From NCBI GenBank assembly GCA_028286645.1, contig JAQBRF010000004.1:472942-514133 (forward strand): a DNA stretch of 41,192 nt, given 5' to 3'. The translations under genes and the position numbers were made by a program. The notes under the pieces were generated by a model. The model saw nothing but the letters and a program-made list of their open reading frames with translations, searched no databases and was not told the DNA's origin. Origin of the DNA: Candidatus Nomurabacteria bacterium. GTDB lineage: Bacteria; Patescibacteriota; Minisyncoccia; Phycocordibacterales; UBA5272. Positions 39,510 through 41,192 of the stretch are shown here, in pieces. How positions within the stretch are numbered: position 1 is the stretch's first letter; each line of letters begins with the position of its first letter.

Positions 39510-39542
39510 AAATAGCACGAAACGGTTGGTTTCGTGCTATTT
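39510..39542. terminator. Hairpin after the rRNA operon
   Basis: AAATAGCACGAAAC/GTTTCGTGCTATTT is a 14-bp perfect stem with a 5-nt loop. It lies after the 5S genes on the minus strand. The tail is not T-rich, so termination strength is uncertain. Confidence 0.55.
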
Positions 39543-39663
39543 ATGAAATCTATTATTTAACATCTAATGCGCAATCTTAATTCCTTCTTAAGTTCTTTGT
39601 TCTCCCGACAAGCTACTTTCCCAAATAAATTTAGTATGCACGCTTCCGTCGGGTTTAACTTCG

Positions 39664-39851
39664 TTTTCTGTTTAATTAATTTCAAACAGTTTTCAAATAC
39701 TTAGTTCTGGCGGCAAGCTACTTTCCCAAATAAATTTAGTATCATCGCTGCAGCAAGGCTTAACTGCTCTGTTCGGAATGGGAAGAGGTGTGACCCTTGT
39801 GCCAAACCACCAGAACAAAGTATTTGAATTCGTTAATTAATTAAACAGAAA
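39664..39851 (-). other. 188-nt insert in the outer 5S rRNA
   Basis: The ends are perfect 17-nt inverted repeats TTTCTGTTTAATTAATT and complement. A second pair, TTCAAATACTT/AAGTATTTGAA, flanks the inner 5S, so the insert folds as a long processing-type helix with a whole 5S at its tip. The boundary is uncertain by 1-2 nt. Confidence 0.8.
39704..39816 (-). rRNA. rrf: Inner 5S rRNA, complete
   Basis: The 113-nt 5S has helix I GTTCTGG/CCAGAAC, GGGTCACACC, CCGAACAG in loop C, AGTTAAGCC and GATACTAAAT. It looks canonical and is probably the functional 5S. Confidence 0.95.
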
Positions 39852-39901
39852 CTGTCCGGAAGCGGATGGGTGTGACCCCAAAGCCAAATCAGGAGAACAA
39901 A

Positions 39902-40010
39902 AAACTCAAAAGTTTTTAATTTTTGAATTTTCTTGTATGTGTAAAATAAACACTCTTTACACATCTAAACTATGAAATAGACACGCACACATACCTAGTC
40001 ATAGGTATGT
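39902..40010 (-). other. 23S-5S transcribed spacer
   Basis: An AT-rich spacer with TGTGTAAA/TTTTACACA and ACATACCT/AGGTATGT hairpins. No tRNA is present. Confidence 0.6.

Positions 40011-41192
<1,182 letters not shown>

Follow-up and report, generated by a model that had tools for sequence, protein, structure and literature searches.

Downstream of a 23S rRNA gene, and close to the end of a 514-kb contig from a Candidatus Nomurabacteria bacterium, the minus strand carries a complete 5S rRNA gene within an insert that splits a second 5S rRNA gene in loop C. This nesting had been reported in a first-pass annotation of the window (the whole stretch of 41,192 nucleotides analysed here), and its coordinates are right. 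Read along the minus strand, the order is outer 5′ half (39898-39852), insert (39851-39664) and outer 3′ half (39663-39599). The nested locus is the sole 5S locus in the host genome, a member of the Patescibacteria with 863 kb (~0.86 Mb) of sequence that is 98% complete and not closed. The features are these, with their basis in brackets:

39705..39815, minus strand: inner, complete 5S rRNA gene, the probable working 5S (Rfam RF00001 and helix pairing)
39852..39898, minus strand: outer 5S 5′ half, 47 nt, helix I 5′ strand to loop C (first 29 nt as in genus mate G002; helix III/loop C 8/21 identical)
39599..39663, minus strand: outer 5S 3′ half, 65 nt, helix III 3′ strand to helix I 3′ strand (HMM match; last 12 nt as in G002)
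39664..39851, minus strand: insert in outer loop C, 188 nt, boundary placed to within about 1 nt (uninterrupted 5S at the same place in genus mates)
39835..39851, minus strand: left arm of the perfect 17-nt terminal inverted repeat of the insert (sequence; shuffles)
39665..39681, minus strand: right arm of that repeat (sequence)
39818..39828, minus strand: inner precursor stem, 5′ strand, 11 nt, perfect pair (sequence)
39692..39702, minus strand: inner precursor stem, 3′ strand, 11 nt (sequence)
39899..39913, minus strand: outer precursor stem, 5′ strand, as in genus mates (comparison with them)
39587..39598, minus strand: outer precursor stem, 3′ strand, as in genus mates (comparison with them)
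39857..39864, minus strand: 5′ strand, CGCUUCCG, of a new outer helix in place of helix III/loop C (predicted fold)
39641..39648, minus strand: 3′ strand, CGGAAGCG, of that helix (predicted fold)
39609..39637, minus strand: outer 29-nt 3′ arm (helix IV/loop E/V), the same as the inner arm and unlike the genus mates compared (sequence comparison)
39714..39742, minus strand: inner 29-nt 3′ arm, identical to the outer (sequence comparison)
39510..39542, minus strand: strong hairpin 3′ of the outer 5S, the probable end of the rRNA operon transcript (sequence)

The perfect 17-nt inverted repeats that had been described at the insert ends, and the 11-nt pair that follows them, are both present in the sequence, and none of 20,000 shuffles of the flanks reaches the match of the 17-nt repeat. 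The single long precursor helix that had been expected, tipped by the inner 5S, agrees with the predicted fold of a 351-nt precursor (-123.6 kcal/mol, z = -8.0), no shuffle being equally stable. A scan of the insert found no promoter-like site, so that inner and outer copies are probably co-transcribed with the 23S; the hairpin at 39510-39542 received no call from a simple terminator scan. The 23S gene, truncated by the contig end, holds a group I intron core at 40348-40474 on the minus strand (Rfam RF00028, 38.9 bits, E 2e-8, below the curated cut-off), for which an ORF of its own was not seen.

At the 5S locus, no intron family is among the Rfam matches up to E 10 over 39560-39940, and identification of the insert as a group I or group II intron was rejected as it matched no intron covariance model. 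Weak matches within it to ctRNA, FtrA and other Rfam families lie below cut-off and were likewise set aside. What the insert does have is the structure of an RNase III-type intervening sequence, a perfect 17-bp terminal stem in a genome that encodes RNase III (236.7 bits, at G000:C5:61978-62634).

The two copies compared

The inner gene matches Rfam RF00001 over the full length of the model (1-120, at 39705-39814) with 77.7 bits against a cut-off of 38; its helices I, II and III are paired at 8/8, 7/7 and 8/8 positions, like those of genus mates, and its 3′ half by itself scores 23.7 bits with the Rfam 5S model. When either outer half is searched alone that model gives no 5S match, and it is an HMM built from relatives that recognises them, the 5′ half with 14.3 bits (E 0.013) and the 3′ half with 23.6 bits (E 1.7e-5). 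On the best reading of these comparisons the inner copy would be the 5S that works in the ribosome.

It had been proposed that nothing is missing from the outer copy. As to length this stands, with 112 nt in the outer copy and 111-113 nt in the inner, but the interior of the outer copy has diverged strongly. Ten of 51 columns that are invariant in relatives and inner copies are changed in it, a count that, like others near the break, may move by 1-2 as the outer/inner alignment rests on hand-cut junctions. Pairing is 8/8 in helix I and only 5/8 in helix III, and by its helices and conserved nucleotides the joined outer copy does not class as a 5S. In the predicted fold its interior takes up, in place of the 5S fold, the new 8-bp helix below the insert stem. 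Its ends are a different matter, being identical to the nearest genus mate at 41/41 positions versus 8/21 in helix III/loop C (Fisher p = 2e-8), though such conservation is also compatible with a single event that scrambled the interior alone, which counts against the reading preferred below.

Which copy was there first can be judged from the genus. Of 15 other genomes searched 13 gave a 5S match, and the genus mates that were read have an ordinary, uninterrupted 5S at this place. Their precursor flanks and helix I resemble the outer copy, and are identical to it in the nearest ones, G002 sharing exactly the 29 nt at its 5′ end and the 12 nt at its 3′ end. Because of that match the outer copy is, as judged by comparison, the ancestral resident locus and the inner copy the inserted newcomer. 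The 29-nt helix IV/V arm common to both copies is in none of the genus mates compared, which indicates either a recent duplication or arms that have been homogenised.

The outcomes that had been put forward were rejoining of the outer RNA, release of the inner RNA only, and a fragmented outer 5S in the ribosome. Hardly any weight can be given to the first, in which the 188-nt insert would be removed and ligation of the halves would give a 112-nt 5S. The exon lengths do sum to that of a normal 5S; against this, an intron match is absent at the locus, the RtcB ligase was not found in the genome as far as it is complete, and in the product helix III would be broken and 10 invariant positions altered. 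Splicing of the tRNA type was rejected on the same grounds, and while the missing RtcB may leave room for another ligase, rejoining is unlikely. With RNase III present and RtcB not found, one would expect the stems to be cut and the inner 5S to be released and trimmed, with the outer copy left unjoined. Release of the inner RNA is thus the favoured outcome, the inner copy moreover being always intact.

Recurrence and decay of nested loci

A scan of 84,980 genomes for a 5S 5′ motif followed by a short gap and a complete 5S gave 87 stretches, most of which were discarded as chance matches, with an ACACC of a tRNA or spacer upstream. Inspection left a clear upstream 5S half in 4/87, each with nesting in loop C:

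L119 (same locus as G159/L157): Candidatus Vogelbacteria, of the same order as the window
L081 and L133: Candidatus Falkowbacteria, two species and assemblies
L100: Candidatus Buchananbacteria

All four are Patescibacteria, though the pattern suits the 5S genes of many phyla, and all four have, although it was no part of the search pattern, a 5S 3′ half after the inner gene. Their inner genes score 63.7-97.1 bits, their outer copies are never reported at the Rfam cut-off, and the nested RNAs are more stable than shuffles (z -4.6 to -8.2). The search of related genomes that had been recommended does turn up the arrangement. Among the mates that were read, those of the window's genus are uninterrupted, and those of the family of G159 also have ordinary 5S genes, G260 excepted. 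A strict form of the pattern run phylum-wide over 380 genomes matched the window only, and a form with a wider gap matched nothing in 397 genomes of the order, from which it appears that strict patterns understate the phenomenon. An exact-match scan of viral contigs with the shared arm gave no match.

Partial copies of 5S genes were also sought by comparing 124 5S loci with their own flanks. All 18 of the 18 found have the polarity of nesting, with 5′ pieces upstream and 3′ pieces downstream, and reversed or reverse-complemented flanks, used as controls, gave none; a laxer score limit added one weak match of opposite polarity (L047). At pattern-selected loci the 5′ matches are not independent of the selection, while the 3′ matches there, and all matches in unselected loci, are independent and agree. 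In a pattern-free sample (L001-L067, 51 loci) there are partial pieces in the window, G056, G059, G029 and G060, and a full tandem copy in G031. The occurrence of the same nesting in several unrelated lineages suggests that the 5S gene has repeatedly been replaced from within by its own copy.

That the nested locus is an assembly artefact from two tandem 5S genes is scarcely credible. The 29 nt common to the two copies could be taken to point that way, as could the true tandem known in the order, but independent assemblies from other lineages, two related Falkowbacteria among them, have the same topology, the insert carries its own 17-nt inverted repeat, and the repeats are far shorter than common reads. 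Collapse of a tandem was accordingly rejected, in keeping with the earlier argument against a simple repeat collapse. The true tandem itself (L015, G031) has complete 5S genes at 510-616 and 708-812, each with its own precursor stem, the second being degenerate (46.6 bits); like the nested locus it has two 5S genes in one operon, one of them degenerate, and differs in that they lie side by side. Elsewhere, a small contig (L009, G012:C26) has two near-identical 5S genes of a type unlike that of the G012 lineage and possibly foreign to the bin. In the same order as the window, a hairpin of about 100 nt lengthens helix IV of the 5S gene at L178 1509-1712 (G042) and looks like an ordinary expansion segment.

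The outer copies are in various states. That of L133 is nearly complete save for loop C, with nearly all compared pairs kept. Its close relative L081 has a 47-nt hairpin at the outer three-way junction; hairpins occupy that junction in L157 and L100 too, and in both of these the conserved AAGUUAAG strand is partly lost. In the outer shells of L081, L157 and L100, which are independent, the extra hairpin lies between GCGCC(G)A and TGRTACT. A sample of the same order as the window holds more eroded shells; those of L110 and G056 (L010) have several inserted hairpins, and in G056 the outer stem is intact (predicted -32 kcal/mol) with the interior wrecked. One-sided remnants are present in G059 (L026) and G260 (L176) and, more weakly, in G029 (L024) and G060 (L011). 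In G260 (L176 730-892) a complete 5S is followed by an additional 3′ half; two hairpins accompany it, and the 30-nt 3′ end plus flank is repeated exactly. L026 1264-1627 in G059 has two 5S 5′ halves and a single 3′ half; there the 5′ partner in the maturation stem is not the one in the compact 5S, the 3′ flank pairing with the far 5′ flank only (predicted -28 with the outer 5′ flank versus -4.6).

The inner copy is intact in all of the nested loci and the outer usually not, and helix I of the outer copy is completely paired wherever it was aligned. Between inner and outer copies 2-3 helix I pairs are changed on both sides in the window, L133, L081 and L100 (4/5 loci), with both versions paired. 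The helix IV/V arm is among the segments most similar between inner and outer copies in all five loci, near identical within each pair. One helix IV base differs between the two Falkowbacteria and is the same in inner and outer copies within each, so that arms were probably copied between the two after nesting arose.

Probable maturation of the inner 5S and fate of the outer copy

The best reading, to which we give a fair but far from complete measure of belief, is that the inner copy took over and the outer became a processing shell. A copy of the 5S gene would have lodged in loop C of the original gene and assumed the role of ribosomal 5S; the outer copy would then have lost the 5S fold, keeping helix I and the precursor stem while its interior became a hairpin. 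The operon transcript would form the single long helix tipped by the inner 5S, and RNase III, which is retained by CPR bacteria (PMC12641178), would together with trimming enzymes free the inner 5S by cleaving the stems of insert and precursor, the outer halves staying unligated. From the features described we infer the processing, the identity of the RNA that enters the ribosome and the use made of the shell stem. Takeover by the inner copy is less plain in Falkowbacteria L133, since its outer copy is nearly intact outside loop C.

The same history with a shell that is a decaying pseudogene of no role is an unlikely variant, though one to be taken seriously. In it the inner 5S matures by its own stem, and the outer ends are kept by youth or by gene conversion. 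Inner copies do bear their own precursor stems in the window, L157, L133, L081 and L100, the near-identical helix IV/V arms and the base shared within each Falkowbacteria locus point to gene conversion, and the one-sided remnants of L024, L011 and L176 are also in its favour. The conservation of the ends and not of the interior argues for a processing shell and against this variant, as do the two-sided helix I changes with pairing kept in both copies and the stem of G059, which only the outer flank can form.

Insertions in 5S genes are not new. Prokaryotic 5S expansion segments are 13-109 nt long, with loop C among their sites and cores thought to be intact (Stepanov and Fox 2021, PMC7812874). 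They include that of Halococcus morrhuae and resemble the present case in being large self-paired inserts in a 5S gene; unlike the insert in the window, none is reported to be a 5S. The survey discarded sequences with internal duplication, and Patescibacteria are absent from its listed groups (PMC7812874). By analogy with H. morrhuae, in which the insertion is kept, the insert could be retained in an RNA of about 300 nt in the ribosome; the outer copy would then be the core, and the inner 5S would form a giant loop C expansion segment. Positions 34-37 of loop C are sterically open and known as a place of expansion (PMC7812874), and the outer copy of L133 has kept its pairs. This is nevertheless improbable: the unperturbed core by which expansion segments are recognised is lacking in the window and most nested loci, conserved 5S parts having been lost from the outer cores of the window, L157, L100, L110 and G056, and the long perfect stems are expected substrates of RNase III.

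The 23S intervening sequences, that of Coxiella being an example (PMC4990558), are also stem-forming rRNA inserts that RNase III would be expected to remove without ligation. The insert in the window differs in that it carries its host gene in a complete copy, and in that it is the host gene and not the insert that decays. A fragmented outer 5S, with insert and extra hairpins excised in that manner and the halves held together by pairing, is a very improbable outcome. It would draw on the full pairing of outer helix I, the placing of the L081, L157 and L100 hairpins at one common junction and the encoded RNase III; the outer copies, however, have conserved interior nucleotides replaced or missing, and there is always an intact inner 5S available.

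The rRNA genes of CPR bacteria are rich in inserts, as the 23S of the window with its group I intron also shows, yet a study of these bacteria found no insert of at least 100 bp in any 5S of a set of 645 (PMC11270868), whereas the 5S in the window holds one of 188 nt. In the open-access literature searched no case of a nested, split or partial 5S gene was found, in agreement with the earlier statement that a 5S within a 5S is not known to have been described; the related loci are those reported here. As standard annotation reports the inner gene alone, caution is called for in 5S annotation.

A single-copy, essential rRNA gene interrupted by its own copy, which we have not found in print, thus recurs in distant lineages of Patescibacteria. 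From the nearly intact outer copy of L133, through the wrecked shells of G056 and L110, to the one-sided remnants, the loci form a natural series for the replacement of an rRNA gene from within. More tentatively, and as a possibility rather than a probability, the 5S of Patescibacteria may be renewed by serial self-nesting, with a copy lodging in loop C of the gene in place and supplanting it, the old gene becoming an eroding processing stem that matures the 5S within it, possibly in repeated cycles. The finding bears on how 5S rRNA is matured in bacteria with few ribosome-assembly factors.
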